A stretch of DNA of 64,000 nt from positions 4,713,673 through 4,777,672 of the forward strand of contig OX359197.1 in the NCBI GenBank assembly GCA_947172415.1, given 5' to 3'. The notes under the pieces were generated by a model that did not search any database, had not been told where the DNA came from, and saw only the letters and a program-made list of their open reading frames with translations. The position numbers were made by a program, and so were the translations under genes. Position 1 is the stretch's first letter, and every line of letters begins with the position of its first letter. This DNA comes from Chondrosia reniformis (taxonomy: Eukaryota > Porifera > Demospongiae > Chondrillida > Chondrillidae). This document shows positions 29,658-58,098 of the stretch, piece after piece.

Positions 29658-29864
29658 AAAATTAAATAGCACAACTAGAAAAAACAAGACTGGACTAAAA
29701 TTTAAGTGATTTTAACCATAAAAACCACTCCTATTTTTGGACACATCATGCATGATAGAAGTAGAAATGATGCCCTAAAAACATATACTAGGAGTGATGA
29801 AAAATGAACTTCCTATATAGTATTGCTGGTTACAGGTAAACCACTTTGCTGTAATAATTGCATT

Positions 29865-30095: not shown

Positions 30096-30230
30096 GTAAG
30101 TAAATAGATATTTGGCAAAATTAAACCATCCCATGTGTTTATTTTACCTCTGAGAGTTACTATATTTTGCATATCAGGATACGTACGGGAGTATAGGAAT
30201 GACAGAAATATATTTATATAATATATTTGC

Positions 30231-30882: not shown

Positions 30883-30978
30883 GTAGAAACTACAGACTAC
30901 CTTTGAGAGTCATAACTAAAGACATTATTCTAAATGTCTATTGAATTGAGGTGTACTACGGTGATTGTATCAGCACAC

Positions 30979-31721: not shown

Positions 31722-31853
31722 TTCCAAAAGATTTACTTAAAAAACACACCTGACGCCATTTTGTTTAATCCGATATACCCTGGTTACACGAAAACACGCC
31801 CTTCCTTTCCGGTTCTCAAAGCCAAGCACCCAGTTGTCTTTAGAATTGCCAAG

Positions 31854-33073: not shown

Positions 33074-33307
33074 AACCTGGGCAGCCAAAGGACATACCTC
33101 ACTGTACTACATAGCTACAGTCTTAGTAGATATAGATTTTATGTACACGTTATTATAATGTTAGCAAATATTCTAAAATATTTGGTGGATTATTAGATTA
33201 TACATGCATTTGGTTAATTGGGTTAATTAGGGCAATCATACAACAGGCAATAAAGTTCATCATAGATATGACTTCTACAGAGCTATAGACTGGGCGAACC
33301 ATGATTC

Positions 33308-33459
33308 AGAAGTAGGGATGGTATGCCCAAACACAGAACTGATGTGTATGGATAAGTAACTTAAATTTTGGTATACCACTTCTGTATGGTTACAGCTAAC
33401 GCTATATGTTGTCTTATTTCAATACTTTTTCTGCTATTCATTGTTGCAACACTGCTTCT
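33308..33459. repeat. Foldback element copy, GTPase B 3' flank
   Basis: Left end AGAAGTAGGGATGG as in copy A, but the right end is shortened (ACTGCTTCT). The same shortened form occurs in unit C. Confidence 0.6.
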
Positions 33460-33714
33460 AAAATTAAATAAAACATTCAAAAAATGAAATTAGTGGTAGG
33501 GATGGTAGTGCTGTACAACGACTAGCACAACTAGAAAAAACAAGACTGGTCCTAAAATTTAAGTGATTTTAACCATAAAAACCACTCCTATTTTTGGACA
33601 CATCATGCATGATAGAAGTAGGAATGATGCCCTAAAAACATATACTAGGAGTGACGAAAAATGAACTTCCTATATAGTATTGCTGGTTACAGGTAAACCA
33701 CTTTGCTGTAATAA

Positions 33715-33954
33715 TTGCATTACCCGCGGGACCCGAGATCAGTTGTTTTTTCGGCGTACTCACTGTGACATCACATACTGAGAAAAGAGATATCTCAACG
33801 ATTCTTGGAACGTAACGAATTTCTCCTTCATTTTTAAATAGTATTCATATCTCTGTCAACGGTCATAATAGTTCTTGAACAAGCTAGCCACAGTGCAATA
33901 GTCTCGTCAGGTTTTACGATCTATACGTACGTACCACGATGAACCCCCCAAAAA
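33715..33954 (+). promoter_or_regulatory. Orphan RLR promoter and first exon (unit B), CRE mutated
   Basis: Same module as 29865-30095, with the 16-nt exon at 33939-33954 and an intact GTAAGT donor. The palindrome reads TGACATCA instead of TGACGTCA, removing the CpG at its centre. Confidence 0.72.
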
Positions 33955-34088
33955 GTAAGTAAATAGATATTTGGCAAAATTAAACCATCCCATGTGTTTA
34001 TTTTACCTCTGAGAGTTACTATATTTTGCATATCAGGATACGTACGGAAGTATAGGAATGACAGAAATATATTTATATAATATATTTG

Positions 34089-34325
34089 CCACTACAAAAC
34101 AAACACACTGCCACTACAAAACAGACACACAGCCACTACAAAACAGACATGCAGCCACTACAAAACAGACACACTGCCACTACAAAACAGACATGCAGCC
34201 ACTACAAAACAGACATGCAGCCACTACAAAACAGACACACTGCCACTACAAAACAGACACACTGCCACTACAAAACAGACACACTGCCACTACAAAACTA
34301 CAAAACAGACACGCAGCCACTACAC
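34089..34325. repeat. 22-bp minisatellite, unit C (short)
   Basis: About ten units of the CCACTACAAAACAGACACAC type. It is much shorter than in units A and B, so array length differs strongly between otherwise near-identical copies. Confidence 0.92.
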
Positions 34326-34423
34326 AAGTAGAAACTACAGACTACCTTTGAGAGTCATAACTAAAGACATTATTCTAAATGTCTATTGAATTGAGGTGTA
34401 CTACGGTGATTGTATCAGCACAC

Positions 34424-35164
34424 CAACTTTAGATCTTCGTTTTACATCTTTTTGTAAGTTAGCGGGCTTAACTTCGTCTACACATGTAAAGTAAGTATAC
34501 AAATGCGTTTGTGTATATTATATGAGAGGTGTTAATTACATATTTCATGTAAAATCTGCAGGAGAAAAGTGGTTGCATTATCTAGTAATTTTCCATCTAC
34601 ATCTCCATCAGATGGTACATAGGCCTATGTGAAAAAATTTCATGGTTTGAGCCAACCAAAATACCACGAAATTACTGTATTGTAGGTACGTACGTAGTTC
34701 TATTGGAGTAAACAATTTTTGACATTCCAAGGTGTTTGTCATTAAATTTGCATCAAAGAGATTTACATTGTGTACATTGTGTTACCATAGATTATATAGA
34801 CTGCGTATTCTATGGTGTTACCTACGCACCAGGTGGTCTTGGTAATAGTGGAACATCACCAGAATCAGACAATACCTAAAACATGAACACAGAGAAGCAA
34901 GCTGCAAGAAATACAATGTAAATATAGCAACCTGCAAGTACAGATAAATACACTCTCACTTCAACTTTTACATTTACAACACAATGTGCCTGGATTAGGG
35001 TGTTTCGTCAACATACACTTGTTAGGCGCTAAAGACATACAGAAATGGTGTGATACTCTATCCGAATCAGATTACGTGATTATTTCAATCCAAGCTCTTC
35101 CCAGCATCAGTTCTTATATACATTCAGTAATAACACATAACGTTACCTGTAATGTTTCAGCCAT
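34424..35164 (-). pseudogene. Orphan IQCE exons 1-3, unit C
   Basis: Exon 1 (35147-35164), exon 2 (34830-34875) and exon 3 (34424-34477), all in frame, with the same damaged exon 3 donor (GTGTGC) as unit B. Its promoter has been pushed more than 1.1 kb from the GTPase by the transposon insertion. Confidence 0.75.
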
Positions 35165-35220
35165 TTCCAAAAGATTTACTTAAAAAACACACCTGACGCC
35201 ATTTTGTTTAATCCGATATA

Positions 35221-36341
35221 GGGCGTGGCTTCTATATTCGGACACCATGTAATTTCGGACGCCTGTTCTCAGTGGTAAAGCATTCAATCTTCTTCCTTTT
35301 TTGCTCACATAATAAGTAGACTGACCCTAGATGGTGTACCAAGTTTGGCCCAGAAATAGCGTCCCGAATAGAAGTTATCGACCAAAGTTCAAAGTGACCG
35401 AAAATATATATTTTCGGACGAAAGTCATGTATTTCCGGACAGTAGCTCGTAAACTTTGAAGCAAGCACAGTCGCCGACTTTTAGTTGCTCTAATGATAGA
35501 TATACTCAAGGGTTACTACCAGGAGAAGATTCAGATTCAACCGTTTTGAGATGACAGAGGAAGGTTTGTTTTGATTAGGCGCTCTGGGGTCATCTAAAAT
35601 CGGACACCATCTGCTACTAATTTCGACATTCTTGGGCTGTAAATAGCTTAGGTATCCACTTTGTAGCTTCTAATGTCTCTAACAAGGCTAGTTCAAACTA
35701 AATATCAGTAATAACAACCACAGAGTCATTTTATCTTAGTGTACCACCGACCTTCCTGAATTTTCACACTTTTAATCTGTGCACAAGTGGGATTAGGTAT
35801 TTTACTAGGTCAATACCCATTTTTAATTTAACAGTGTCGAATAAGCTTTAGTTAACATCCAAATAATGCCTAGAATACAACTGAATGCTACATTAGTCCT
35901 AGAAGTTCATTTTAACACCACTAACTTCAGTTATTTTCATTTTTTGAAGAAAAGGTGTCCGATTTTAGATGACCCCAGAGCGCCTAATCAAAACAAACCT
36001 TCCTCTGTCATCTCAAAACGGTTGAATCTGAATCTTCTCCTGGTAGTAACCCTTGAGTATATCTATCATTAGAGCAACTAAAAGTCGGCGACTGTGCTTG
36101 CTTCAAAGTTTACGAGCTACTGTCCGGAAATTCATGACTTTCGTCCGAAAATATATTTTTTCGGTCACTTTGAACTTTGGTCGATAACTTCTATTCGGGA
36201 CGCTATTTCTGGGCCAAACTTGGTACACCATCTAGGGTCAGTCTACTTATTATGTGAGCAGAAAAGGAAGAAGATTGAATGCTTTACCACTGAGAACAGG
36301 CGTCCGAAATTACATGGTGTCCGAATATAGAAGCCACGCCC
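35221..36341. mobile_element. TIR transposon, non-autonomous, ~390-bp inverted repeats, TA target duplication
   Basis: Ends GGGCGTGGCTTCTATATTCG and the exact inverse; the inverted arms run to about 35610 and from about 35952, leaving a ~340-bp centre. TA flanks both ends (35219-35220, 36342-36343), and the empty site is visible in unit B (GATATACCCTGG). The identical open frames in the two arms (35232-35468 minus, 36094-36330 plus) are mirror images, not genes. No transposase is present. Probably Tc1/mariner superfamily by the TA duplication. Confidence 0.92.
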
Positions 36342-36419
36342 TACCCTGGTTACACGAAGACACGCCCTTCCTTTCCGGTTCCCAAAGCCAATCACCCAGT
36401 TGTCTTTAGAATTGCCAAG

Positions 36420-37501
36420 ATGGCCAACAACTCCCTTAGAACAAATAAAAATGATAAAATATTTTTAGTAGTTGGAACCATCGGATCCGGAAAGAGTTCG
36501 TTTTGTAATTTCGTTACAAACAAAAAGGTGAATACAAGATAGCTAGTAGTTCATACTCGGCCTTAAAGTGCAGCCAATTACACTCGGCCTATACCAACGT
36601 AAAGAATACATAGTCTACACTTTGTTTGGTAACTTGGAGAATTAAGTAATTAATAAAAGAAGTCGTGGTAAAAAAGTGTGATCCTATCTATACATAGGAA
36701 TGTAGTGTTCCAGGTGGCATGGACAATCTGAGACCTTGGACCCGGGACGTTAACTCTGTTGAGTCTAGGCTTCCCGATGGCCACAAGTTGTTTGTGATAG
36801 ACACTCCTGGAACTGGCAACCCAAACAGAGGAGACAGCGATGAACTGGAACTCGTCAGGCAGCTGAAGGGAGCCTTTGATATTGCAGGTGAAACCGTAGA
36901 TACTATTTTAATCTGTATGCAGTCCGAGCATCGATTTAGTAAGGATGTAGCCAAGCCAATTCAGATTCTAAAAGATCACTTGGAAGTACACCCTAACCAT
37001 ATTGCTGTGGTGTTTACTGCTTGTGGAGAGAGAGATGAGGCAAAGGAAATTGAAAAACGAGAGGATTTTCTACATAAATTGCAAGTAGGTACATCATTTC
37101 CTGAAGATTTGCGGAATTTGATGAGAGAAGTTGGTTACAGATGCAGTCTTTTGGAAACCAAACCAAAGCCAACTGAGTCACCAGACGATATAACCAAATA
37201 TTATGATCGTAAAGTTAAAGAAATGCTTAACCTGTCAAAGCAGACAAAACCTTATACCAATAAGGAGTTCCAAGAACGTGTAAGAAAACTAGAAGAGGAG
37301 TCAAGGAGGTGGTGGAAAGTTGTTGATGGTGTAGTGAATACTGGTTCAGTTGCTAGTGTGGGTGTGTTGGGGATTGCAGGTACAGCTCTTGGAGGTGCAA
37401 CTTTTGTGGGAGCTCCCATTGTAGTGGTTGGAGCAGTAGGTGTAGCTATTTACAATATAATAAGAGGCAAAGGATGGGTTGGACCATCCAGCAAGCCATG
37501 A
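36420..37501 (+). CDS. AIG1/GIMAP-like GTPase, copy C
   Basis: Exons 36420-36527 and 36698-37501, 303 residues. A 12-nt in-frame deletion removes four residues after Met-Ala-Asn-Asn-Ser. P-loop GTIGSGKSS, DTPG, TACGE at G4 and the hydrophobic C-terminus are all kept. The ATG is only 77 bp from the right end of the inserted transposon, so its former divergent promoter has been split and the element may now supply upstream sequence. Confidence 0.82.
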
Positions 37502-37731
37502 AACCTGGGCAGCCAAAGAACATACCTCACTGTACTACATACAGTCTTAGTAGATATAGATTTTATGTACACATTATTATAATGTTAGCAAATATTCTAA
37601 AATATTTGGTGGATTATTAGATTATGCATGCATTGGGTTAATTGGGTTAATTAGGGCAATCATACAGCAGGCAATAAAGTTCATCATAGATATGACTTCT
37701 ACAGAGCTATAGACTGGGCGAACCATGATTC

Positions 37732-37885
37732 AGAAGTAGGGATGGTATGCCCAAACACAGAACTGATGTGTATGGATAAGTAACTTAAATTTTGGTATAC
37801 CACTTCTGTATGGTTACAGCTAACGCTATATGTTGTCTTATTTCAATACTTTTTCTGCTATTCATTGTTGCAACACTGCTTCTAA
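37732..37885. repeat. Foldback element copy, GTPase C 3' flank
   Basis: Third copy of the AGAAGTAGGGATGG element, with the shortened right end shared with unit B. Confidence 0.6.
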
Positions 37886-38144
37886 AATTAAATAAAACAT
37901 TCAAAAAATGAAATTAGTGGTAGGGATGGCAGTGCTGTACAACGACTAGCACAACTAGAAAAAACAAGACTGGTCCTAAAATTTAAGTGATTTTAACCAT
38001 AAAAACCACTCCTATTTTTGGACACATCATGCATGATAGAAGTAGGAATGATGCCCTAAAAACATATACTAGGAGTGACGAAAAATGAACTTCCTATATA
38101 GTATTGCTGGTTACAGGTAAACCACTTTGCTGTAATAATCGCAT

Positions 38145-38366
38145 TACCCGCGGGACCCGAGCAATCAGTTATTTTTTCGGCGTACTCACTGTGACGTCAC
38201 ATACTGAGAAAAGAGATATCTCAACGATTCTTGGAACGTAACGAATTTCTCCTTCATTTTTAAATAGTATTCATATCTCTGTCAACGGTCATAATAGTTC
38301 TTGAACAAGCTAGCCACAGTGCAATAGTCTCGTCAGGTTTTACGATCTATACGTATACGTACCACG
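38145..38366 (+). promoter_or_regulatory. RLR1 promoter module with CRE palindrome
   Basis: Contains TTTTTTCGGCGTACTCACTG, TGACGTCA (38192-38199), CAACGATTCTTGGAACG and CTCTGTCAACGGTCATAATA ahead of ACCACG-ATG. A recognisably related module precedes RLR2 (47450-47677), which argues for conserved regulatory content. CRE/ATF binding is inferred from the motif only. Confidence 0.65.
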
Positions 38367-41300
38367 ATGAACCCCCCAAAAAGTAAGTAAATAGATATTT
38401 GGCAAAATTAAACCATCCCATGTGTTTATTTTACCTCTGAGAGTTACTATATTTTGCATATCAGGATACGTACGGGAGTATAGGAATGACAGAAGTATAT
38501 AATATTTATTCTGATGGCAATGCTAAACTTGTTAAGTATAGAATAAGGATTTTTTCTAACTACGTCAAACTTATATTCTTTTGGATGGTTCATCTTTCGA
38601 TAGTTTTGAGCGTCTAAAAACACAGTTTTCTGTTCTCTGTTACGTCGGACGTTTTGATCCTGCATCGGGGTCTCAGAACAGAAAACTATATACATACGTC
38701 TTTAGACGCTCAAAATTATCAAAAGATGAACCATCCAAAAGATAAGCTTGTTTAGTCACCTTAAGACAGTTTAACTCAATTAAGCCCCTATATAATATAG
38801 CTAGCTATATAGTAGAGCTTTTCAACCAACTGCATGTATCTCTTTATGCCTGACCACCGGTACCGTTACCAAAAGCTAAGCATATAATATTATATAGGTC
38901 TTTTACTCAATAAGGATCCATTCTACAAGGCCTCATCTTAGCAGCACAATTTTTGGAATTCTGTCAGCCATGTTGTTTGAACAAAGATTTGGGATTTCTA
39001 ATTAATATGCATTACTCATATATTATAGGTTTCAGAAAAAAGAAGATTAGAGAGTTCCAAGATGACATACTACATGAAATGTTGGAATATTGCAATATAC
39101 AAACAGTATCCACAAAACTGAAAACAAAAAAAGCCATCAGTTCTGATCAACTAGAACAGATAAATAAGGCAAACAGCAGAAGTGAGGCCAACAGAAAGTT
39201 TTTTGAAATTTTGGATGGTGATCCAAGTCAAAGGAAACTAGAAATTCTAGCTGAAGTTCTGTTTACAGACGAAACTCATGATGGGCATCAAGAATTATCA
39301 AGAGAAATTAAACAATTTTTCACAGGTACTAAATGTCTATAAGTATACTTAAAAGTCTAATGGATGATTATGTCTTTCAATCCTTTTTCAGAACTTGATC
39401 CTCCTATTGAATCAAGTGTCGAAAGTAGCATCTCAATTCAGATGCATCCTCCACCAAACACACAAAAATTAGCTTCACTAGTAAGATCAGATGTATACAT
39501 ACGTACATATAGTTAACCGTGCATGTATACCACAGATGTGGCATTATAATTAAACTCCAAATCAAATTATAAGAAACCGCTATTTTCATTTTCTATAGTT
39601 ACCATAGGCCTTCACTATATATACAGCATACAGTACAGAGGTTCATAATAATATTATTTTTATATACCAAGCAAACTTAAAAATAACTTGATAATTATAA
39701 ATAGTAGGATGTTTTAACCCACAGTCTTTATCAACTGCTAGTAAAGAATGAAGAGAGATTGGCTGTTTAATTACATGTCCAATGATGACTTAAGAAGATT
39801 ATGAAAATAATAATAAATAATGATTCAGAAATAATTGTAAAAATAACTTTCAAAAGTTTCAGTGACTGAAATTGGTCCATAGATGTTCTCTTTTTATAGA
39901 CATTATTTCCCTTGGTTAATTTGTCTCTAGATCAAAATTAAAGATATAAGCTTGATGTATATAGTTAGAGGAAATCCTTATTTTGCTATTATAAAATTAT
40001 GTACATATACATAAAGCAATGAATGAGTGAAAGAGGAGGGAGGGGAATTGAGGATCCGGATATAGTCAAGTTTGATAAAGTATAGGATTCTATTTATAAA
40101 TGGTGGGGTGTTTTATATCCAGAGAATTTAACTCCCGATTGCTTCAGAAGCAAATTTGATCAATAAATTAAATGTATTCAGTATACGTATCTAATGTATA
40201 ATGATTGCACATGTAATAATGCAATTGCAAATTGTAATAATTCTTTGACTAATACTTTACATATACGTAGGTTGAACCAATGGTCACTGATAATACTCAA
40301 ATTGGCACATCCAGTATGGATCATGAGCCATCAGCTGCTATCAAAGAACCAAAAGGTTTGGATATACTTACATGTACGTAGACTATACAGTTAATATATA
40401 GCTTAATGAGTAATGAAGAAGTGTGTTATATTGTACTCCCAAAGTTATAAATGAATGACATGTTGTATGTTAATATCTTATATAATTGCATGTACAGTAT
40501 ATAATATAAACCGTATATTTTATATACTAGAAGAATTAGTATATGAAGCTCAACTTCAAGAAAAGGAGGTACATTGTGACAGTTTTGTGGAAAATCCGAG
40601 ACTAGTGGACTCCACTTGCACAGGTGCTGAATCCGTTCAGCAAGATATAAAGGGTAAGACACAATGGCTCATTCTTTAAGGTAATCAGCTACTTTATGAA
40701 TTACCATTTCAAATGCCTCCAGGGTCAGAAGCTGTTGAAACGATAAGCATAGAGGAGAGGTACAGTTTCAAGAAAGGTTTCAAGCTGAGGCCCTATCAGG
40801 AAGAGCTAGCTGAGCTTGGTATTAGTGGTCACAATTACGTAGTGTGTGCTCCAACTGGATCTGGTAAGACTGCGGTGGCTGCAGCCGTGATTGCTAGCCA
40901 CCTCAAGAAGAGGGAGAGGAAAGGGAAAGTGGTCTTTATAGTTAGTCGGGTTCCACTTGCCAGACAACAATCTGATCACTTGAAGAGTTACCTGCCTAAC
41001 CTCAATACAGCCATAGACTATACACATGGCACTAGAGAGGTAGCACTGAAAGCCATCTTGCAGACTAGTGAGATTGTAGTGTGTACTCATGGTACATTCT
41101 ACAATGACCTCAAACGAAATAACGTGAAGATGAGTGACATTTCGTTGCTAGTCCTTGATGAGTGTCACAATGCACGCCGTACAAGCATATACGCACAAAT
41201 AATGCATGAATATCTGAGTGCAAAGCTGTCCAGGAATGAGAATATTCCACAGGTAGTTGGCTTAACAGCGACACCGGGGGCAGGTAGGTCTAAGGAGATA

Positions 41301-42872
41301 GCACTGAGCGATGTACAGACCCACTTGATTGACCTCTGTGCTCTACTGGATGCCACCCGTGGGTACTGTATTGTTGAGAAGCACAAGCAAAATCTTGATG
41401 ACACAGTATTTTCTGCCAGTATAGACGTATGCACTACAAGTGGTAGAGACAGCACTGACTTATTCCTGTCTGAGGCTACCACTTTCATGGAGGAGATAGA
41501 GAGAGATCTGGAGGTCCAACCGCCAGGTGCAAGGGATGATATTAGCTACTTGCAGTGGATAGAGAAACTGAGAAACCAATTATTTGCCAACAGTGAAGGC
41601 AGAGATAGAGAAGAGTTCCAAAAAATATCATTGGCCCTGAATTTCCTGGAAGCATACTCTAGTACTATAGCCATTTACAAGGATTTGGCTGCTCCTCAAG
41701 CTTTAGATAACCTTGTAGAGTCCTTACATCAATACGATGACCCACAATCCCATCCAAATGCATTTTTACAATATTTGATAAGAAGACACTCAAAGATTCA
41801 AGATAAGCTTCAACAACTTGCATCAAAAAAGGCTGAAAGCGAACACTTAAGAAGACTGAAAGACCTCCTCTCAGTGCACTTTTTTTACAAACCAAACACA
41901 AAAGCCATAATCTTTGCCCAAACCAAGTACCATGCCATTAGAATTAGCAAATGGATTAGTGATACCTTCAAATTCAATGAAAGAAAAATTCGAGCAGACT
42001 TTTGCATTGGCCACAAAGGAGAAGGAAGAGATGATCGATTTGGAATGACAGGTAAACAGCAATATAATGTTCTGCAAAAGTTTCGTGAAGACAAAGTAAA
42101 TGTTCTGGTTGCCACATCTGTACTGGAAGAAGGGCTGGATGTACCCGACTGTAATTTGATAATTCGTTTCCTGTATGTCAAGGATGAAATATCTCGCAAA
42201 CAGACTGGAGGAAGGGGTAGAAGCAAGGACACAAGGCACTATGCTTTGTTGGAGAGTGGGTCAAAGGAAGAACAGAGAGAAAAGTTGAACCAGTTCAAGG
42301 ATCAGCTAGTAGAATGTGCTTTGGAATTGATGAAAAGTAAATCCCTAGAAGCACTTAGTTCTGAGATTATATCAAGACAAATCCAGATATTGAAGGTTGT
42401 AGAGGAAGAAAGGCTTCGCAAACAGAAACGAAAGGCTTACATTCCAGAACAAGTTACGCTTTTCTGCAAAGGTTGTCGTGCATTTGTTTGCAATGGGCAA
42501 GATCTGAGAGTGATTGAAAACAGTCACCATGTTGTGATGGATCGGAGCATCTGGGATCGAGTAATAGTGAAGACCCATGAAGCTAAGGGAAAGGATTTGC
42601 CCAAAGGGGAGCTGAAGAGAGAAAAGAAAATATCTTGCAAAAAATGTCAGTATCAGCGATGGGGGATCTCATGCATATTCCCCAACTCCTGTGGCCTTGA
42701 ACTTCCTATTCTGAAATGCAAAGACTTGATATTTGAGTACTATAACCCTCTAATTGGAATAGGTACAACCTCCATGCCACATTCCAAGTGGACCCAAGCC
42801 CTCTTTGAGGTGGAAGACTATGACTCTACTAAGTACAACTTGGGGAAATACATACTCTCTTCTGAACAATAA
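38367..42872 (+). CDS. RLR1: RIG-I-like RNA helicase with N-terminal CARD-like domain
   Basis: RIG-I-like receptors sense viral or double-stranded RNA in the cytosol and signal through death-fold domains. Exons: 38367-38382, 39029-39325, 39392-39480, 40271-40355, 40531-40653, 40723-42872; phases agree, 919 residues. Residues about 13-100 form a helical CARD-like domain (REFQDDILHEMLEY...), resembling the CARD of the 58-kb gene. About 105-203 is an acidic linker. The helicase has motif I APTGSGKT (246-253), motif II DECH (349-352), motif III TAT (385-387), motif V ATSVLEEGLDVP and motif VI QTGGRGR. The C-terminal regulatory domain has two Cys pairs (785/788 and 842/845), the zinc site of RLRs. 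Vertebrate RIG-I and MDA5 have two CARDs; here there is one. The whole helicase plus C-terminal domain is a single exon. The promoter and exon 1 come from duplication unit C. Confidence 0.9.
38578..38741. repeat. Foldback repeat in RLR1 intron 1
   Basis: Arms CTTTTGGATGGTTCATCTTT and AAAGATGAACCATCCAAAAG are exact inverses, followed inward by TTTTGAGCGTCTAAAAAC and its inverse. Related sequence occurs near the 3' end of the Penelope-like element (44140-44220) and around 50610 and 63860. Confidence 0.75.
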
Positions 42873-43424
42873 CTCGTAAAACATTTAGAGTTACTGGATT
42901 TTCCAAGCCATATCAATTAGCATACAAAGTATACAACATACATATGCAATAATAACTTTTTTCAGAATATTATATCTATACAGTTTATTTTCTTCTTTAA
43001 AGATATTTTTCTATGGTGTTTCTGTATGTATAATACATATGAAATGGAAAGCATTTTTTGTATCAATAGTTAATTTAAAAATTATTTACCATCCACTATA
43101 ATAATAATAATAATAATAATGATTGTTTATTATTGTGACATGCTATACAAAACTGAAATCAGTAAAGACAGCCCAATCACAAGGGTTTATAAGTCACACT
43201 AAAAGACATTGACTGCAACTGGATAAATTGGAGAGGGGGGGGTGAATTGTATGCATTTATAAAAGTATATGTTGAGTAAAGCTAGGTGACTGATTTGTGC
43301 TGCAAGTACATGAGATAAATACAGTTGCATGGTGATTTGTTTATTAGGGTATGAAAGGATATAGAGGCATTTCTGCATATTGTTTAGAGTATTTATAAAA
43401 ATAGCACTGCAATATATTGAAGTC
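42873..43424. other. RLR1 3' flank without genes
   Basis: AT-rich 3' flank. Includes an (ATA)n microsatellite near 43098-43120, preceded by AAAATTATTTACCATCCA, which recurs at 46526-46543. No coding content was seen. Confidence 0.5.
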
Positions 43425-43877
43425 AAAAGGTGTACACTCCAGAACAGGTCACACTATATTGTAGAGGTTGTGAAGCATTTGTATATATAGGGGACAAGAT
43501 CTGAGAGTGATCGAAAACAGTCACCATGCTGTCCAGGATAGAAGCATTTGGAAACGTGAAGAGTGAAGTTACATGAAGCTAAAGGAAAGGAATTGCCAAA
43601 GGGGGCACTGAAGATGGAGAAAAGAATTTCTTGTAAAAGGTGTCGTTGTCAAATTTGGGGGATCTCATACATATTCCCCAACTCCTGTGTCCTTGAACTT
43701 CCTGTTCTGAACTGCCAGTACTTCATATTTGAGTACTATAATCTTCTAATTGGAATAAGTACAACCTCCATGCCCATCGATTCCAAGTGGACCCAAGCCG
43801 TCTTTGAGGTGGAAGACTATGACTCTATTAAGTACAACTTGGGGAAATATGTACATATACTCTTTTCTGAATGATAA
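43425..43877 (+). pseudogene. RLR C-terminal domain fragment (broken)
   Basis: Closely matches the RLR2 region from TACACTCCAGAACAGGTCAC to the stop codon (52683-53115). The first Cys-pair segment is damaged: ATTTGTATATATAGGGGACA replaces an open reading, and a small deletion before GAAGAGTGAAGTTACATGAA shifts the frame. The second Cys pair becomes CKRC. No helicase part precedes it, so it is an isolated remnant. Confidence 0.85.
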
Positions 43878-44149
43878 CTCGTAAAAACAAACATACAATT
43901 CCACACATATATATAGCACATACAATCCATTGAAAAAAAGATTGAAAATTGGCGGAAACGCGCTTGCCTTCAGCTCTCACGCTCGATAGTTCCTAAAGCG
44001 AATTGCTTCGGCTTGGACTCCCTATTCCTCTAGTGGTTAGCCTGCAATCGCAACAACTCACGTTTGAGAGTGCTTTGTGGAATGCACGTTACTCTGCCAC
44101 TGGTTTTTCAATAACCTTGTTCTGTATCTTTGGGATGGTACATCCTTCG

Positions 44150-45757
44150 ACTTTTGAGCGTTTAAAAACGCAGTTGGTTTTCGATTCTTCGTCAAACGTT
44201 CGACCCTGGGGGTCTTCCTCAGTGACTGATGGTTGAGTGGAAGAATTGTCTCTATTTATATAGAGGATTTTTCCCGCCATTTCCACTTCCTGTCATGTAA
44301 CCCTCAGCAGGATGAGAAAAACAGGAAGTATGAATATTAAATCGTCTCCAGGCTTGATGTAGCACAATGCCTAAATTCATTCTCACCTGACACTTCTGGA
44401 TCCTGATGGCTTCTTTGACTCTTCTCCTTTGCCAGTGGATTTCCCTGTCTGTAATCTTGGCCTTGTCCCAAGCAATTGAGTGGCCAGTCTTGAGGGAGTG
44501 AACAGCTATACCGCTGTTCACATCCCCCATCCTGACTGCTCGCTTGTGTTCCGCCAATCTCACTTTCAGGGTCCTTCCAGTTTCACCAATGTAGACTGCA
44601 GAACACTCAGAGCAAGGAATTAGGTAAACTATACCCTTGATATCCATAGGTGGTTGTGGCTGTTTTGGGTTGGATAAAACGGTTCTCAGTGATCTCTGTT
44701 TGGAGAAAATTGTCTGGATACCCATTTTCCTACTGCCTTTATCGATCATCTCACTGAGTCCCTTTATATATGGAATAAAGAGTTTGTGTTTACACTCATC
44801 CTCACTCCCCTTATAGTCTGCCTTCTCCTGTTGAGCAGTATATGAGCCTCCCATTTAGGGTATCCATTAGCTTGAAGTACTCCTTCCAGGTGCTCCTTTT
44901 CTTCTTCCAAGCTACTGGAGTTTAGTCCACAAATCTTTTCGGCTCTGTCTTTGAGACACAGTGCAATACCAATTTTTACCCTAGGGTGGTGATGAGAGGT
45001 AAAGTGAAGGTACCTGTCTGTGTGTGTTGGTTTCCTATACACAAATGTGTCCAAACTTCCCATGCACTTCTTTACTTGTACATCCAGGAAGGGTAAGGAA
45101 CCATTGGTCTCCTTCTCCATGGTAAATTCGATGTTGCTATTTCTTCCATTGAGGAAACTCAAGAAGTCCTCCAGCTGCTCTTCACCATGATTCCAGATGA
45201 CAAATGTGTCATCCACATATCTCAACCACAGCTTAGGCCTTATCACAGCAGCACGAAGGGCTTCTATTTCGAATTCCTCCATGAAGATGTTCGCTACCAC
45301 CGGGGAGAGAGGAGATCCCATGGCTGCCCCTTCCTTCTGCTCAAAGAACTCATCAATGTACAGGAAGTACGTTGTCCTGAGACAGAGTTCTGTAAGATCC
45401 GCAATGGTGGATACATCCAAGGGTGTCCGTTGTTCCAAGTTAGGGTCCTGGGTGAGTCGTCTCCTGATGATCTGTAGAGATAGATCAATGGGTACTTTGG
45501 TAAATAGGCTCTTTACATCAAAACTGATCAACTTATCTTTGGTGTTCACATCCATTCCCCTGATCTTCTTAACAAAATCATGAGAATTCCGCACAAAGTG
45601 AGAAGTTTTTCCCCATAGTGGTGACAATACCCCTGCCAGATACCTGGAAAGGTTGTAGGTAGGGGAATTAATGGAGGAAACAATTGGTCTCAAGGGTACA
45701 CTTGCCTTGTGGATTTTTGGTAATCCATAGAGCTGAGGTGTTGAGGCTGAGGCTGAG
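44150..45757 (-). mobile_element. Penelope-like retroelement, 5'-truncated and frameshifted
   Basis: The minus-strand reverse transcriptase begins at about 45757 with PQLYGLPKIHKA, a hallmark of Penelope-like elements. It contains FDVKSLFTKVP and the catalytic YVDD. A second frame (44252 to about 44830) carries a GIY-YIG nuclease: GIVYLIPCSECSAVYIGETG, then RTLKVRLAEHKR. Reverse transcriptase and nuclease should be one protein, so a frameshift near 44830-44800 marks this copy as dead. The N-terminus is missing. Downstream (44140-44230) lies CTGAGGAAGACCCCCAGGGT, similar to several foldback repeats in the window. Such elements transpose via target-primed reverse transcription (family knowledge). 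Confidence 0.88.
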
Positions 45758-46502
45758 GCTTGTTCTGGCCTGCCTCTGGAGGTGTGAAAACTGCGACTAA
45801 GAAGCGACGATCTAGGCGTCACAAGAAAAGCAGTCAAGCTGCAGACATTCGTGCTAATATCAAAGAGCAGATGAATCAACCCAAATCTGAAAAGACTGTT
45901 GATCTCCCAATTCCCACTGAAGGAGCCACTCCTCACTCGGCAGCTAATGGTAATAAAGTCCAGGCACCCTTTCTACCTCCTGATACACCACTAGTCAGTA
46001 AGCTGAGACATGTGAATGAAGAGGATGCATGTTGTGATGATGACCCTGCAGTCCTGGATAGGATCGTGCAAAGTGGGCAAAAGGTTTATGAAAATGCTAA
46101 ATTTGTTTTGGAAGAGAATGTTGGCCCTGCATTGAAGTTTACTGATAGACTGGGAGGTAGGATAGCACTGACCCCTATCAAGCTTCACAACCTTGGTGAT
46201 GATGGAGATGAAATGGATGATGATAGCTTAAAAAAGTATCTGCAAAGTTGCAAGACCATTGAATATGTGCAGGTTGATGGTCAGCCAGGCCTCACGTTAC
46301 ATTGGGGTCGCTGCCGCTTTTGGACTGCTATTGAAGTAACTCCAGAGGTAGTTATAGAACTAAACCGGATAAATTATGTGTCCCTAACTGATATTCTTGT
46401 ATTGTAATGTTCATCTGTTTTTGTATTTTGTAAGGTTCCCCCATTCATACCAGCCTTGGGCCGACGGGGCTATACCTTTAACAACAATAATAATAATAAC
46501 AT
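45758..46502 (+). mobile_element. Retro-fragment with open frame of unknown function and (AAT)n tail
   Basis: An intronless open frame to 46407 starts abruptly at the Penelope-like truncation point. It is Lys/Arg-rich at first (KTATKKRRSRRHKK), then acidic with no recognised domain. It ends in a stop followed by CTTGGGCCGACGGGGCTATA and ACAACAATAATAATAATAAC. A truncated 5' end, no introns and a microsatellite tail suggest the 3' end of a retrotransposon or a retrocopy. The protein was not recognised. Confidence 0.55.
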
Positions 46503-46654
46503 GTTTACAGTTACTTTGTGAAAAGCTAAAATTATTTACCATCCAATTCCTTTATGTAAAATTGTTCTGCATGGTGTAAATTTAGTAATATATAAAACCC
46601 GAAATTCCTCATTTATTTCCTTGTCAATGTACAGAGGTAGTGCTGCCATTATGT

Positions 46655-46768
46655 ACCTCCATCCTCCATGCCACATTCCAAGTGGACCCAAGCCCTCTTT
46701 GAGGTGGAAGACTATGACTCTACTAAGTACAACTTGGGGAAATACATACTCTCTTCTGAATGATAACT
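46655..46768 (+). pseudogene. RLR terminal fragment (last ~37 codons)
   Basis: Encodes the terminal HSKWTQALFEVEDYD... stretch and stop codon, almost identical to RLR2 at 53013-53115, followed by the same 3' flank (GATAACTCGTAGAAACAAAC). The upstream part is absent. It is a remnant of another RLR copy lost by deletion. Confidence 0.88.
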
Positions 46769-47450
46769 CGTAGAAACAAACAGATACATATATAACATTG
46801 TGGTTGCATATACATGCATATAAACACTGTTTTGACAATCCCTTTCTATACGTATATTCTTCTATAGAACTATTTATTATAGTGTTTTGTACAAACAAAT
46901 TCTAGTGTGTGCAGGAAGATTGAAGCATATTTATATAAATACAACTATATTTATATAAGTGCAACTAATAGATTATGGAATCACAAAACTGTAAATCTGT
47001 AATTGTATTATACCTGTAAGCCCACAGGATCAAATTTCAGGTTTCATATGGCATGAAACGATTGAAACTTCTTGAACAGCCAGGTTCAAAGGGTGCTCAA
47101 GTATGTACTAATAGATTAGTTTTTCACAGCCCTCTTTCTAAGTTTATACATACTTATATATATTTTTTAATTGGCCTGGGTTATAGTTCCAGAGCTGGTA
47201 GTTAAGGGTATTCTTCTGAAACTAATGACCTTGGCAAATTTTGGTTTTACAACTTCTGTATGTTGTATTGTTTCAATAGATCTAGAAGTGCTTCATTGTT
47301 GCAACACTGGCCATCCCTATACTCCTAAAAATTAATTAAAACATTCAATATAACAAGACTGGACTAAAATTTAAGTAATTTTAAATACTACTCCTATTTT
47401 TGGACGGATCATGATAGAAGTATGAATGATGCCCTAAAAAATTATACTAG
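46769..47450. repeat. RLR-type 3' flank with dispersed repeats
   Basis: Parallels the RLR2 3' flank (53116-53600), including CTTGAACAGCCAGG and TTTAATTGGCCTGGGTTATA. A foldback-family end (TTGCAACACTGGCCATCCCT) appears near 47300. No gene was seen. Confidence 0.65.
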
Positions 47451-47677
47451 AAGCAATTTACCCGGAATCCGGGCAATCCGTTATTTTTTCGGCGTACCAC
47501 TGTGACGTCACACATAAATACGTATGAGAAATTCTTGGAACGCAAGAAATTTCTTCTTCATTTTTGTATAGTATTCAGATCTCTATCAACGGTCAAACTA
47601 CCATTTCTTTTGTCGTAATAGGTCTTGAACAAACTAGCCACAGTACATTAGTTTAGGTTTTACGATCATCTACCACG
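47450..47677 (+). promoter_or_regulatory. RLR2 promoter module with CRE palindrome
   Basis: Diverged copy of the RLR1 module: TTATTTTTTCGGCGTACCAC, TGACGTCA (47503-47510), GAAATTCTTGGAACGCAAG, TCTATCAACGGTCAAACTAC, then ACCACG-ATG. Keeping the CRE and the first-exon context despite many substitutions suggests function. Confidence 0.62.
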
Positions 47678-50600
47678 ATGAACCCTCAAAAAAGTAAGTT
47701 ATTATCGGTATATATTTGACAAGTTAAACCATCCCATGTGTTTATTGTACCTCTGAGAGTTATTATATTTTGCATATCAGGATACGTACGGGAGTACAGG
47801 AGTGACACGAAATATATAACCCGTGATCAATTTATGTTTATATATACACATTCAAACAGCGAACTGGCTATAACCCATATACAGTGAAAACTGGCTAACA
47901 CGAAGTCGCTATACACGAATTGAAATATTGCTTAACACAAAAAAATTCGCCCAGACCAGGTTATTTACTGTACTATACTGCTTTACGCGAAAATTGCTCC
48001 AGCGGTAGTCTTAGAGGTGTGGCATGGGGGATTGCATTAGGTAACTATATATAAATATGTTTAGCGCATGACGTTGGGATAAAATGGACCAAAGCGATCA
48101 GCTTCGAAGTCAAGGTAGGGAGCTCGATCGCGATGGACAAGGAGATCTAGAAAGAAAAGGTACTGGAATAAAAATTATACAATGTCATGTAGTATTGGTG
48201 CACTATATGTCGTCATAGATTGTGCGTGATGGTATTATATATATAATTAATTGAATTCCCGGCCCCACTTTTTGGTATATATGTACTCAAAGAATCTGAC
48301 TATATGCAAATCATTTTTTTATAAGATTGCTCTCGTTTCCATTTTCCATTCAGAAAATCCAGTCTCCACTTCACCAGTACAAAAGAAAGCTATTTCAATT
48401 GGAGACTTGTTACCTTACTCCACAAAGTTATCTCAAAAGTTACTTCCACTGGGAGTAGCACTTGGAATTAAGGATTATGCTAAAAGCAATCTAGCAGGCA
48501 ATGAAACACCTCAGGATAAGTGTATCCTGATACTTGACAAATGGTTAGAGGTGTCCACACATCCAACCTGGAAGGAGTTTTGTGAGAATCTTAGAAAACC
48601 TGGTCTTGATATGGTGAGCCTTGCTAATGAAATAGCAGAGAAACACTATCCGCATACTTCAAGTGAGTTTTCACTTTAATCTAACACACTTGTATAACTG
48701 AAGTGTGTATCATTAAAGAATTAAGGAATGCTTAACTTAATGTGAAACAAGAAATTTGCATCTTGTGTATGTATTTTTGAATCTGTACAGTAGTTGTTTT
48801 GTATAACTCAAACAAAAGGCAAGCATAAAATATTTACAATCGTATCATTTGTTTAGGTGGTGCGCATAAGAACGATCCTATAGTTCCCACAACATCATCT
48901 CAATCATTTTTAAATCCTCACAAGAGGACCACACCTTCTGATCACACATCATCCTCCCCCAAAAGATACAAGAGGAACTCTGACAGTGGTCCAAGTGGAG
49001 CTACATCAGGTCCTTACATGTCATTGCAGCACACAGCAGATAATAGTGAGTGGAAATGAAGTTGTCAGTATGTATGTACCTCTGATTACTGAATGTTAAT
49101 AGCTTATAAAACCTTTCAGTGGTTTTCATGAGTACAGTGATAATCTTTACTCACTAGAGAACAGATTTCAAATTACAAAATATTAATTTTCAAGCTGATA
49201 TTTTATCTTCCTTTTAACTGATGATTAAAGCTTTAAGATCCACTTTCAAATTGATAGTATTCATAATATTATTACCAGGTCAGACTCTTATAGATAACAT
49301 CCAAAATGTTAAAATTAGCCCAATGGGTATACCTGCTTTAGGGTCCCTTCTATTTCCTAGTAAAAAGTTGCCTAAGGTTATGGTCAGATAAGCTTTATTA
49401 GTAATATATAGTATTATCAGGATATACACACTGATTTAAAACTCCAAGATACAGATGGTCCATGCACTTAATATGGTGTATGTGTGTGCTGTAATATAAG
49501 TTATGAGACATTAAAGATTGCAATGACAACTATGCCAACCAATTACTGACTTAGTGCTAACTATGCCTCATGAATGTTGTAGCTTTAATTACCTACGTAT
49601 TTTGTAATGACATGGTAGACACAGAGTAAATGGCATCACCCACACTAAATCCAGGAATGCATGATTGCATTTTAACAATGGATCCTACGACACTATGTAG
49701 GACCACCGTATATAATTTTACAATGCATGAGAGAGATAAAACTCTTCAATGTATACGTATATTCATGCATCTATTAAGTGGTTTCCTACCAATATGCTGT
49801 ACTTATTACATTGTTGTAGACAATATATCAACTTCGGAAGTACCATCTCACATGGAGGTATGACCTAAGTTCTTTATCAATGGAATTAACAGTGTATGTA
49901 TACATATATGTATATGACTGAGAACTTTTACCCCAATATTATTTTTAGCAGTATATATATATAGTACTACAAAGTACAAGTTACAAATTTAAGAGGTACA
50001 AGTGACTATACAATATTAAAATTACAATCAAGTACTAGCTACACATGCAGTGCACATGCAAGTTACAAATTTAAAGAGATCCAAGTAATCCATAGGATAA
50101 TCAGTATTTTAAACAGTACAAGACTTTAGTCACACTATTGCAGGCTTTGAAATCCTCAACTACATAAAGAATAGTAGTTGATACAGATAATCCAAGGTAG
50201 AACACGTGGCCTACCAATTACCTTTTCACACCTAATATAGACTGAAGATGATGCATCTGCATGCCATATATCAACAAAGGCTCCAGTCTTATATATATCA
50301 CAGGTATACCTCTTAGTATATATTTATATCTGTTTCCTTTTAGTCAACTATTCAAACAAATGATAGAAAGACCTCTGAGCGGGTGTTAGAAGAAGTGAAT
50401 ACTCAATATATGGATACTCCACCTATGGAGCAAGTTAAACAGAGTACGGCACTTTCAAACTATGTACCCGTATAGCTAGAAGCTTACAGGGATTTTAATT
50501 TAACAGTTGTGGTATTGCGGATATAACTGCCTGATTTAAATACCATCAAATTTTCTAGCTATACTGTATTTATAACAAATTTAGAGAATACGAATCTTCT

Positions 50601-53115
50601 TTTTAGAAATGGTTCATTTAAGTCAACATAATATTAAACTGTGTCTTCAGACACCCAGAAGGCTAAAGATGAACCATCTCAAAGCTGCCTGCATGAAACA
50701 CAACTGTCTGATAATACATATGTTATAGTCTATCTTGATTCACTTCACTTCTCTTATGGTGATGAATTAGCTATGCAGAAACTAAACATTGCTCAAAAAT
50801 TTAGTCACTACAAAGAAATGTAGCTATTTGATACCATGCATCATCTTGATCCACCATATTTAACTTTAAATCGATAAAGCAATTAAATAAATAAGGTTGC
50901 AATTACAATTTCCAGTATTATGTTTCTGTCCTTCTGTGCAGTGCACATGACTACTATATCAACACCTACCAAAGAGGTAAGCTTAGAGGAGAGGTACAGT
51001 TTCAAGAAAGGTTTCAAGCTGAGGCCATATCAGGAAGAGCTAGCTGAGCTTGGTATTAGTGGTCACAATTACGTAGTGTGTGCTCCAACTGGATCTGGTA
51101 AGACTGCGGTGGCTGCAGCCGTGATTGCTAGCCACCTCAAGAAGAGGGAGGGGAAAGGGAAAGTGGTCTTTATAGTTAGTCGGGTTCCACTTGCCAGACA
51201 ACAATCTGATCACTTGAAGAGTTACCTGCCTAACCTCAGTACAGCCATAGACTATACACATGGCACTAGAGAGGTAGCACTGAAAGCCATCTTGCAGACT
51301 AGTGAGATTGTAGTGTGTACTCATGGTACATTCTACAATGACCTCAAACGAAATAACGTGAAGATGAGTGACATTTCGCTGCTAGTCCTTGATGAGTGTC
51401 ACAATGCACGTCGTGCAAGCATATACGCACAAATAATGCATGAATATCTGAGTGCGAAGCTGTCCAGGAATGAGAATGTTCCACAGGTAGTTGGCTTGAC
51501 AGCGACACCGGGGGCAGGTAGGTCTAAGGAGACAGCACTGAGTGATGTACAGACCCACTTGATTGACCTCTGTGCTTTACTGGATGCCACCCGTGGGTAC
51601 TGTATTGTTGAGAAGCACAAGCAAAATCTAGACGACACAGTATTTTCTGCCAGTATAGACGTATGCACTACAAGTGGTAGAGACAGCACCAACTTCTTCC
51701 TGACTGAGGCTACCACTTTCATGGAGGAGATAGAGAGAGATCTGGAGGTCCAACCGCCAGGTGCAAAGGATGATATTAGCTACTTGCAGTGGATAGAGAA
51801 ACTGAGAAACCAATTATTTGCCAACAGTGAAGGTAGAGACACAGAGGACTTTCAGAAGACATCTCTGTCATTGGACTTCCTGGAAGCATACTCCAGTGCT
51901 TTAGCCATTTACAAGGATTTGGCTGCTCCTCAAGCTTTAGATAACCTTGTAGAGTCCTTACATCAATACGATGACCCTGAATCTCTGGTCACCAAGCATT
52001 CTCAAAGACTGATGAAGAAGCACTCAAGGATACAAGCTTCACTCAGACAGCTTGCCATAGAAAATTCTGAGAGTGAACATTTACAAAAACTAGAAGAGCT
52101 TCTCCTATTGCACTTTACATACAAGCCCAATTCAAAAGCCATAATATTTGCTCAAACCAAGTATCACGCTGTATGCCTTAGCAAATGGATTGGCAACACT
52201 TTCAAATTCCACAACTTTGCAGGGCAACCTATGATTCGGGCTGACTACTGCATTGGTCATAGAGGAGAGGATAATGATGATCGATTTGGCATGACTGGAA
52301 GGCAGCAAACCAATGCCCTTGAAAAATTTCGCAATTACAAACTGAATGTACTGGTAGCCACATCTGTACTAGAAGAGGGTCTAGATGTACCAGAATGCAA
52401 TCTAATTATTCGCTTTCTCTATGTCAAGGATGAAATATCTCGCAAGCAGACTGGAGGAAGGGGCAGAAGCAAGGGCTCAAAGCATTATGCTGTTTTGGAA
52501 GGAGGCTCCAAGGCAGAACAGAGAGAAAAATTAAACCAGTTCAAGGACCAGTTGGTAGAGAGTGCCTTGGAATTGATGAGAAATAAATCGGTTGAAGAAC
52601 TTGATTTTGAAATCAAAACAAGGCAAAGGCAGATCTTGAGGGCTGTAGAGGAGGAAAGGCTTCGTAAGCTAAATCAAAAGAAGTACACTCCAGAACAGGT
52701 CACACTATATTGTAGAGGTTGTGGAGCATTTGTATGCAAGGGACAAGATCTGAGAGTGATTGAAAACAGTCACCATGCTGTTCTGGATAGAAGCATTTGG
52801 AAACGTGTAGTAGTGAAAATACATGAAGCCAAGGGAAAGGAATTGCCCAAGGGGGCACTGAAGATGGAGAAAAGAATTTCTTGTAAAAAGTGTCGTTATC
52901 AAAGTTGGGGGATCTCATGCATATTCCCCAACTCCTGTGACCTTGAACTTCCCGTTCTGAAATGCAAGTACTTGATATTTGAGTACTATAACCCTCTAAT
53001 TGGAATAGGTACAACCTCCATGCCACATTCCAAGTGGACCCAAGCCCTCTTTGAGGTGGAAGACTATGACTCTACTAAGTACAACTTGGGGAAATACATA
53101 CTCTCTTCTGAATGA
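47678..53115 (+). CDS. RLR2: RIG-I-like RNA helicase with N-terminal Death domain
   Basis: Exons: first exon 47678-47693 (Met-Asn-Pro-Gln-Lys) or alternatively 48084-48159 (MDQSDQLRSQGREL...), then 48354-48662, 48857-49045, 49820-49857, 50344-50443, 50651-50758, 50942-53115. All phases agree: 977 or 997 residues. Exon 48354-48662 encodes a Death domain (LGVALGIKDYAKSNLAG ... TWKEFCENLR), not a CARD. A Ser/Thr-rich linker follows. The helicase exon keeps APTGSGKT, DECH, TAT, ATSVLEEGLDVP, QTGGRGR and the C-terminal Cys pairs (CRGC, CKKC). The first ~330 codons are almost identical to RLR1, then diverge. A possible extra exon at 49279-49376 is open, but its end phase does not fit. Probably a cytosolic RNA sensor using a different adaptor from RLR1. 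Confidence 0.87.
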
Positions 53116-54433
53116 TAACTCGTAGAAACAAACAGATACATATAACATTGTGGTTGCATATACATGCATATAGACACTGTTTTGACAATCCTTTTCTATA
53201 CGTATATTTTCCTATAGAACTAATTATTATAGTGTTTTGTACAAAAAATTCTACTGAATATAAGTGTGCAGGAAGATTGAAGTGCATATAAGTGCAACTA
53301 ATAGATAAAGGAATCACAAACCTGTAAATCTGTAATTGTATTATTATACCTGTAAGCCCACAGGATCAAATCTCAGGTTTAATAATGGCATGGAACCTTT
53401 TTGAAACTTCTTGAACAGCCAGGTTTCAAAGGGTGCTCAAGTATACGTTTGTGCTAATAGAATAATTTTCACAGCCCCCTTTCCAAGTTTATAGATACTT
53501 ATATATATTTTTTAATTGGCCTGGGTTATAGTTGCGGAGCTGGTAGTTAAGGGTATTCTTCTGAAACTAATGACTTAGGCACCCTTTCTATAACTTCTGA
53601 AACCTGGAAATTCAAAGCGTTTCAAGTAGGTTTCATGCCCTCTGAAACCTGAGATTTGATTACTTAATTCTTAAACTTAAGGAAAAAAGAAATGACAATT
53701 TTGACAGATGAATTTATAAGATATAGAAAGGTCTAGAATTGCAATTTTGAATCTCTGTTTCCTAAGATTTTTACTCTTTGAAATGCACCATGCACTACAA
53801 GAGATGCAGCACTTTGCTATACACCTGACCGATCAAAGAGCAGAACCTTCTTCACAAGTAGTGTTCCAATTTCCCTCCATTTGTCTATATAGATCTGCTA
53901 ATTTTGGAATATACATATGTACATAATGTATTATAATTAATCTAATTTACGTAGTATGGTAGATTTGTGTTGCTGAAGATTTACATAGACAAAGCCACTT
54001 AAAATTTAGAAGTAGGGATGGCAAGGCTTGCAACAATGAGTAGCTATAGCACATGTATATACATCTAGAAAAGTAACAAAGCAAAGACAGTGTTCATGTA
54101 TGTGCATGTGATAATGCCAACTATACAGAAGTGACATACTGAGACATAACCACACATATATACAGTATACTTCTATGTTTGGGTGCCTCATGACATACTT
54201 ATATACGTATACTTAAATAGCTGTGATGATAAACTCAAGCAGGGAGAAGTTTTCATAAATCATGATCAAGGCACCAATATTATTGCGGATTGCACTTTTG
54301 GGTTTCAGGGGGAAGGGGCCAGGTTTAGTATATTCATTAGTCTGTGGCTAAGCTATAGCACAAGGAATTTTAATTTAGTGGTCAGTATAAAATACGTTCT
54401 AATGTACTGTGCATTAATAGAAACCTGAAACAG
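53116..54433. repeat. RLR2 3' flank: dispersed repeats, no gene seen
   Basis: Shares 3' flank and repeats with 46769-47450 (about 53370-53600). An AGAAGTAGGGATGG foldback-family end lies near 54008, and GTTTGGGTGC near 54178. An open frame at 54183 shows no domain or signal peptide. Confidence 0.55.
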
Positions 54434-57394: not shown

Positions 57395-58098
57395 TGAAGA
57401 GCCATGGTACTGTAACTGGTGTTAATTTGAACTAACATGCACATATTTGATTTTATAGTGTTGTTTCTTTTCATGATCATCGTGTTCATATATATCAGTT
57501 TCATTTTCATTTTAGTGTTTCCATTGTATGTTTATAACTGGCATCACACTGAATATTTATTGTACAATATCTTTTCTTGGACAATGTTTAAATATTATAT
57601 ATTGGAATCAATGTTTAGATAAGGCAGTATTCTTAATATATAGATTAAACAGTGTATAAGTATCACTATTTAATAATGAGCATTTGCTAGCTAAATTGCT
57701 ATTGAATATTGATTGCTCAGTATACGTAGACCTTTACAAGGTAGTATACTTTGTTCCTGGCAGGCACAGTGCATCTTTGAGCCCAAGCGCTCCATAACTC
57801 ATTAAGGAAAAACCTCTGTTTGATCCAGTGCCAGTGCTTTCTATAGAATCAAATGTACGCCAATCTAGGAAATGTTTCATACATGTCTGTGAATGCTAAC
57901 ATCAAGTTTTAGCTTCATAATAGCACTAAATGTATATTAAAATACTGGTATATATACCATATTAATTTAATATATGGTGAGAGATAGGGCAAATGTAAAG
58001 ATTTATATAGATTGGCACGCATTGTAGGAAGGAAGGTAGGAATTCCTAGATTGCGCAAATCCATAGAAAGTGCGGAATATATAGTCTACGTGTATATC
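57395..58098. other. AT-rich spacer upstream of the CARD gene
   Basis: No recognised gene. The hydrophobic open frame at 57437-57622 is a low-complexity AT artefact. The promoter of the 58-kb gene should lie at its right end. Confidence 0.4.

Follow-up and report, generated by a model that had tools for sequence, protein, structure and literature searches.

Vertebrate RIG-I and MDA5 join an SF2 helicase and a C-terminal RNA-binding domain to N-terminal tandem CARDs. The same helicase and C-terminal domain, with an N-terminal CARD-like exon in one of the two, are encoded by neighboring tandem genes for RIG-I-like receptors (RLRs), putative sensors of viral RNA, in the sponge Chondrosia reniformis, RLR1 (38367-42872, + strand) and RLR2 (47678-53115, + strand), which were found where the initial annotation had placed them. 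Both lie in the window analyzed here, a stretch of 64,000 nucleotides (C9:4713673-4777672, C9 being contig OX359197.1) from a searched genome of 117 Mb in 15 contigs; positions without a contig prefix refer to this window. In contrast to the vertebrate sensors, each gene carries one death-fold domain rather than tandem CARDs, and a single-exon helicase. Both genes are members of a tandem cluster of five copies, in which CARD exons, Death exons, and the helicase exon have probably been re-assorted through intronic recombination and gene conversion.

The nearest described counterparts are lophotrochozoan RLRs, whose siblings also differ in their N-terminal domain. In the partial text of PMC8998645 (the other cited papers are likewise represented by partial text), sibling receptors carry grafted N-terminal Death, DED, CASc, and IG domains, attributed to exon gain or loss or to exonization; an acquired DED exon that preserves the frame distinguishes the members of one pair, which otherwise agree at 98%. 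In C. reniformis, by comparison, CARD and Death replace each other inside one cluster, a relative of the Death block can be traced on a different chromosome, and one copy pairs a CARD with the second (type B) of two helicase types. The kind of event is already known from these shellfish sensors; the present locus adds a clear new example of it and introduces no new principle. Among sponges, Amphimedon queenslandica has two RLRs, both of the Death type (type A1; PMC8998645), which resemble RLR2 in having an N-terminal Death domain, whereas the C. reniformis genome holds seven RIG-I_C-RD places, four of the cluster copies being preceded by CARD and one carrying Death. Adaptor-type domains have also been exchanged onto RNA-sensing helicases in cnidarians and brachiopods, where TRADD-N and death-like domains are fused to RLR-like receptors (PMC8195603); those cases involve TRADD-N rather than a choice between CARD and Death and, in the text available, are not described as tandem siblings. 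Sponge NLRs, whose N-termini may be CARD or DEATH (PMC12909245), likewise attach one or the other module to a common sensor core, although their sensors are NACHT-LRR proteins and not RNA helicases. In the open-access listings and passages searched, which leave out most articles of subscription journals, no sponge cluster of RLRs was seen to combine CARD with Death. The C. reniformis cluster offers a traceable case, from a probably early-branching animal, in which a single locus links similar RNA-sensor cores to two different death-fold outputs.

The tandem RLR cluster

RLR1 and RLR2 follow a common plan, consisting of a candidate 16-nt phase-1 exon 1, a phase 1-1 exon 2, short linkers, and one long exon encoding the helicase and the RIG-I C-terminal domain. 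The predicted models are open (920 and 942 codons, respectively, the terminal stop counted in each), with AG/GT at all internal exon borders, and the phase-1 borders claimed for exon 2 are present on both sides in both models and keep the frame. Both helicase cores were recognized by Pfam (RLR1 and RLR2, respectively: PF00270, 1e-27 and 2.5e-27; PF00271, 3.4e-15 and 4.3e-14), as was RIG-I_C-RD (PF11648; 3.8e-23 and 2.3e-21, or 82.3 and 76.6 bits against a cut-off of 25.6). Between the helicase lobes, RIG-I_C (PF18119) scored 18.5 and 18.7 bits, under its cut-off of 23.2. The helicase and C-terminal domain form one unbroken exon of about 2.15 kb in each gene (Table 1), and a diverged RLR copy on C12 (L013:5827-8091) is likewise one long open frame; such single-exon cores are as expected of a retrocopied core and may have arisen in this way.

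Six of the seven RIG-I_C-RD places lie on C9 and one on C12. Protein identity separates two helicase types, A (RLR1, RLR3, and RLR4) and B (RLR2, RLR5, and a 5'-truncated copy at C9:4958875). RLR1 is 96.6% and 96.3% identical to RLR3 and RLR4, RLR2 is 97.6% and 97.9% identical to RLR5 and the truncated copy, and RLR1 and RLR2 are 84.5% identical to each other, with the C12 helicase at about 35% to the cluster genes. The helicase exons of RLR3, RLR4, and RLR5 are preceded by CARD exons (two copies in RLR3), the link between CARD and helicase being given by in-frame models for RLR1 and RLR5 and by position only for RLR3 and RLR4. RLR5, outside the window, has a predicted model of 888 codons, the terminal stop counted, that is open from the CARD to the end and for which a first exon was not found. 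RLR3 is pseudogene-like, with a stop in the helicase frame and another in one of its two CARD copies.

Among the cluster copies, only RLR2 carries a Death-family exon, and its locus contains no match to the CARD family at E up to 0.1. The initial annotation had contrasted RLR1 with RLR2; the clearest demonstration instead comes from RLR2 and RLR5, whose helicases are of one type and of which RLR5 bears a CARD. With nearly the same sensor, RLR5 is a natural control, and a relative of the Death block persists on another chromosome, which makes it directly testable whether the downstream pathway is set by the N-terminal module and nothing else. At the C12 RLR, neither family profile found a Death- or CARD-family exon within 5.8 kb upstream, so this gene cannot polarize the swap.

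Families of the second exons

Exon 2 had been described as encoding a CARD-like fold in RLR1 and a Death domain in RLR2. Members of both families were gathered from the genome using the window exons as queries, and hhalign gave probabilities of 0.6, 0.4, and 0.2% for CARD versus Death, compared with 99.9% between CARD groups and 99.1% between the close and distant Death groups. No profile search placed both exons in one family, and on these probabilities a common family for the two second exons was ruled out. The separation into different families therefore stands, while the Death half of the description holds via relatives of the RLR2 exon, whose own fold model was unusable.

RLR1 exon 2 looks CARD-like by its predicted fold and, weakly, by profile. 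Its single-sequence AlphaFold2 (AF2) model, with a predicted local distance difference test (pLDDT) score of 70.5, has the six-helix CARD fold and matched solved CARDs in Foldseek and VIA-align. Pfam scored CARD at 13.1 bits, under the cut-off of 23.9, and Rad21_Rec8 higher, at 16.6 bits, yet also under its own cut-off. The family comprised at least 150 genome matches to this exon (150 of 348 candidates were scored), from which 18 members were aligned. Pfam CARD was matched at E up to 0.1 by 7 of the 18, none above the cut-off (best 8.2e-5, 23.0 bits), and among members rescanned these matches were split between 3 of 4 close and 4 of 12 distant ones. Against solved structures, the family profile matched BCL10 (0.015) and CARD8 (0.15). 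Of the 150 family places, 45 formed a typed subset that overlapped neither the 25 Pfam CARD rows obtained with genome-wide thresholds nor the 46 Pfam Death rows compared; at those thresholds the subset thus went unrecognized as CARD.

RLR2 exon 2 is most likely a death domain, a sequence relation that runs through its distant relatives only. Its family consisted of 46 genome matches at E up to 1, 25 of them at or below 0.001, and the alignment held 16 members, 9 close and 7 distant. Pfam gave no match to the sequence of RLR2 exon 2 itself; Pfam Death matched 6 of the 16 members, all of them distant (6/7; best 6.6e-12), with one of five distant members given singly scoring under the Pfam cut-off. 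Among solved structures the family profile matched the death domains of THOC1 (1.3e-5) and RIPK1 (0.0078). The profile built from the nine close members alone matched no death domain in PDB, so the assignment depends on the distant members. Genome-wide, at least 12 of the 46 family places overlapped Pfam Death rows (46 of 142 rows compared), including at least 3 among the 25 stronger places and at least 9 among the 21 weaker, and none of the 46 overlapped the 25 Pfam CARD rows. The single-sequence model of the exon (pLDDT 57.4) had five helices and no usable structural match.

A phase-1 donor occupied the same place in 9 of 19 CARD-family rows and immediately followed the domain in 3 of 15 Death-family rows (RLR2 and the C1 copies L025 and L026), which establishes a common phase for near relatives only.

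Mosaic DNA and its possible origins

On the DNA alignments the exchange is real, although larger and messier than first described. Rather than the cassette swap of a bare exon 2, RLR2 contains a block of about 1.35 kb, with leader, Death, and linker exons, whose similarity to a region of C1 covers the introns too (Table 1). Leader-exon DNA was found at two genome places and linker-exon DNA at three. Parts of RLR2 match different cluster copies, namely RLR4 at 48826-49369 (85.7%) and 49400-53130 (87.7%), and RLR5 at 50859-53700 (97.0%); window positions 40744-43000 match RLR4 at 97.3%. The RLR4 region itself runs from a CARD exon through an RLR2-type linker to a type-A helicase. In the CARD tree, RLR5 clusters with both RLR3 copies (support 89) and RLR1 lies outside, with synonymous divergence (dS) between the RLR5 CARD and the RLR3 CARD copies of 0.017 for one and 0.070 for the other. 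Because the RLR5 CARD groups with RLR3 and its helicase is RLR2-like, RLR5 joins a type-B helicase to an RLR3-type CARD.

The helicase and C-terminal domain said to be common to RLR1 and RLR2 were found in both, but are unevenly alike. dS between the two helicases is 0-0.16 over the first 300 aligned codons, 0.71-1.79 in windows over codons 301-660, and at most 0.05 beyond codon 660, a pattern such as gene conversion would give. For the Death exon, dS between RLR2 and three C1 exons is 0.24-0.30, and in the tree the C1 copies L025 and L026 are paired (support 90) with RLR2 outside the C1 group (70). As RLR2 is not nested inside the C1 copies, C1 was dropped as a proven donor of the Death block; the trees are compatible with either order of events, either direction of transfer between C1 and C9, and either ancestral state.

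Given the observed gene anatomy, the separate exon families, and the mosaic DNA, we consider a mosaic origin by recombination and conversion probable. Recombination within introns and gene conversion would re-pair N-terminal exons with the helicase-plus-C-terminal exon, and phase 1-1 exons would keep the reading frame through this re-pairing, leaving RLR2 with the Death block common to another chromosome and RLR1, RLR5, RLR4, and RLR3 with CARD. The failure of Pfam Death to match any of the nine close RLR2-type members lowers our confidence slightly. More tentatively, the region may be a combinatorial locus in which the diverged A and B sensor exons have repeatedly changed partners among CARD and Death leader blocks via phase-1 introns, conversion keeping the first helicase lobe uniform while the middle diverges, and the Death block bringing its own start. 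If so, the sensing and signaling halves would evolve as separately exchangeable modules.

It is conceivable, if somewhat doubtful, that the cluster instead reflects an ancient split, with CARD-RLRs (type A) and Death-RLRs (type B) as old lineages, RLR5 as the sole late recombinant, and nothing replaced in RLR2. CARD exons do lie upstream of all three type-A copies while the type-B RLR2 has Death, the RLR5 CARD is so nearly that of RLR3 (dS above) that it may be a late import, and the A. queenslandica RLRs are reported to be of the Death type in the part of PMC8998645 available. Yet the RLR2 Death block matches C1 at 81.5% including introns and leader exon, and its Death dS to C1 lies below the 0.7-1.8 of the A-B mid-helicase comparison, a difference that does not indicate the source locus. 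The retention in this block of a leader exon (MDQSD...) with a conserved donor would also suit a chimeric locus, made up of a short independent Death-block gene that has a first exon to itself and an RLR that begins only after it; we regard this as unlikely, as the Death and linker exons, with their symmetric phase-1 borders, are predicted to reach the helicase exon in frame without a stop, and linker-exon DNA also occurs upstream of the RLR4 helicase. That the two second exons are a single divergent death-fold family which drifted apart with no exchange is hardly credible. They are both helical, similar in length, and alike in phase and position, but hhalign gave 0.2-0.6% across the families against 99% within them, and the flanking introns differ as well, those of RLR2 matching C1.

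Candidate partners, gene features, and surroundings

Nonsynonymous changes were fewer than synonymous ones (one-sided Fisher test) in the CARD exon (RLR1-RLR5, p=0.001; RLR1-RLR4, p=0.002), the Death exon (RLR2-L025, p=0.005; RLR2-L026, p=0.04), and the helicase (RLR2-RLR5, p=4e-9). On the other side, the ratio of nonsynonymous to synonymous divergence (dN/dS) is 0.85 for the RLR2-L027 Death pair and 0.58-1.63 for the young CARD copies (RLR3-5), the latter on few changes. Death-fold domains interact homotypically, and from this chemistry it is reasonable to infer that RLR1 and RLR2 would be routed to different adaptors. RNA binding would free the N-terminal domain for homotypic assembly, whereupon RLR1 could recruit CARD partners, such as CARD-caspases, and RLR2 could recruit Death partners, such as a CARD-Death adaptor, with the outcome that similar sensors would feed different signaling branches. 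A candidate CARD-Death adaptor, by position, is encoded at C12:5933760-5934653 (-), where a Pfam CARD exon is followed 385 bp later on the same strand by an RLR2-type Death exon, an order that we take to be that of RAIDD. CARD exons precede caspase domains by 193 bp on C2 and 364 bp on C3. RLR1-type CARD exons also precede NACHT exons (C7) and a C10 exon that scores weakly, below the cut-offs, for Roc and COR, so RLR1 may have partners in common with such receptors.

Table 1. Features of RLR1 and RLR2 in window coordinates
Feature	Position	Strand	Basis or identity
RLR1 upstream (promoter-like) block, exon 1, and start of intron 1	38144-38502	+	77% to 47458-47819
RLR1 exon 1, MNPPK, phase 1 end, ATGAACCCCCCAAAAA then GTAAGT	38367-38382	+	predicted model
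RLR1 exon 2, CARD, phase 1-1, 297 nt	39029-39325	+	predicted fold and weak profile
RLR1 exon 3, linker, phase 1-0	39392-39480	+	predicted model
RLR1 exon 4, linker, phase 0-1	40271-40355	+	predicted model
RLR1 exon 5, linker, phase 1-1	40531-40653	+	predicted model
RLR1 exon 6, type A helicase and RIG-I C-terminal domain, single exon	40723-42872	+	Pfam
RLR2 upstream block and 16-nt exon 1 region	47458-47819	+	77% to RLR1 block and AIG1 units
RLR2 candidate exon 1, MNPQK, phase 1 end, ATGAACCCTCAAAAAA then GTAAGT	47678-47693	+	predicted model
Block common with C1:1656806-1658211 (leader, Death, and linker exons)	48018-49362	+	81.5% over 1441 columns
RLR2 second candidate first exon, MDQSD..., 25 codons, phase 1 end	48084-48159	+	in frame
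RLR2 exon 2, Death domain (via relatives), phase 1-1, 309 nt	48354-48662	+	family profile
RLR2 exon 3, basic Ser/Pro linker, phase 1-1	48857-49045	+	predicted model; related DNA near RLR4 and at C1
RLR2 exon 4, linker, phase 1-0	49820-49857	+	predicted model
RLR2 exon 5, linker, phase 0-1	50344-50443	+	predicted model
RLR2 optional exon, phase 1-1, frame intact with or without it	50651-50758	+	predicted model
RLR2 last exon, type B helicase and RIG-I C-terminal domain	50942-53115	+	Pfam, predicted model

Of the linker exons, RLR1 exon 3 has a 61-bp part, including the donor, that is also conserved close to the RLR3, RLR4, and RLR5 CARD exons. RLR2 exon 3 is Ser/Pro-rich with basic KR clusters that may serve as a nuclear localization signal.

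The 16-nt phase-1 exon 1 proposed for both genes is possible in each, but RLR2 has a rival candidate (Table 1) and may start from the Death block's own leader exon. The promoter module described as common is likewise present at both RLRs (77% identity over 386 columns), although it also occurs in an AIG1 array and is not RLR-specific; the RLR1 block is 98% identical to two copies in that array, which ruled out exon 1 and the upstream block as an RLR-only signature. The array (26523-38500) comprises three tandem AIG1/GIMAP-like GTPase units, each terminating in an RLR upstream block and a copy of the 16-nt exon 1 (at 30080, 33939, and 38367), and two of these starts are not followed directly by an RLR. 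A 16-nt exon feeding the third AIG1 gene was rejected, as the acceptor before the AIG1 ATG (exon from 36410) is, by eye, out of the ATG frame, and the two extra exon 1 copies therefore look like orphan starts carried along by tandem duplication. Within the upstream blocks 38144-38502 and 47458-47819 lies TGACGTCA, presumably a CRE-like (cAMP response element) motif, which is altered in the copy near 33.7 kb. These blocks also hold TTCTTGGAA, identical across all four copies, which we take to be STAT-like.

Downstream of RLR2, a further CARD-family exon occurs at 57988-58482 (+; E 6.9e-26, its own sequence being within the profile). The RLR helicase/C-terminal exon recurs as two partial 3' copies, at 43420-43893, where the copy is broken across reading frames, and at 46657-46782. 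Between RLR1 and RLR2, at 44252-45972 (-), lies an element with open reading frames for a reverse transcriptase (7.5e-11) and GIY-YIG (9.2e-5), a make-up that we take to be Penelope-like. Beside the third AIG1 gene, two inverted 390-bp copies (35219-35608 and 35954-36343) are 99% identical.

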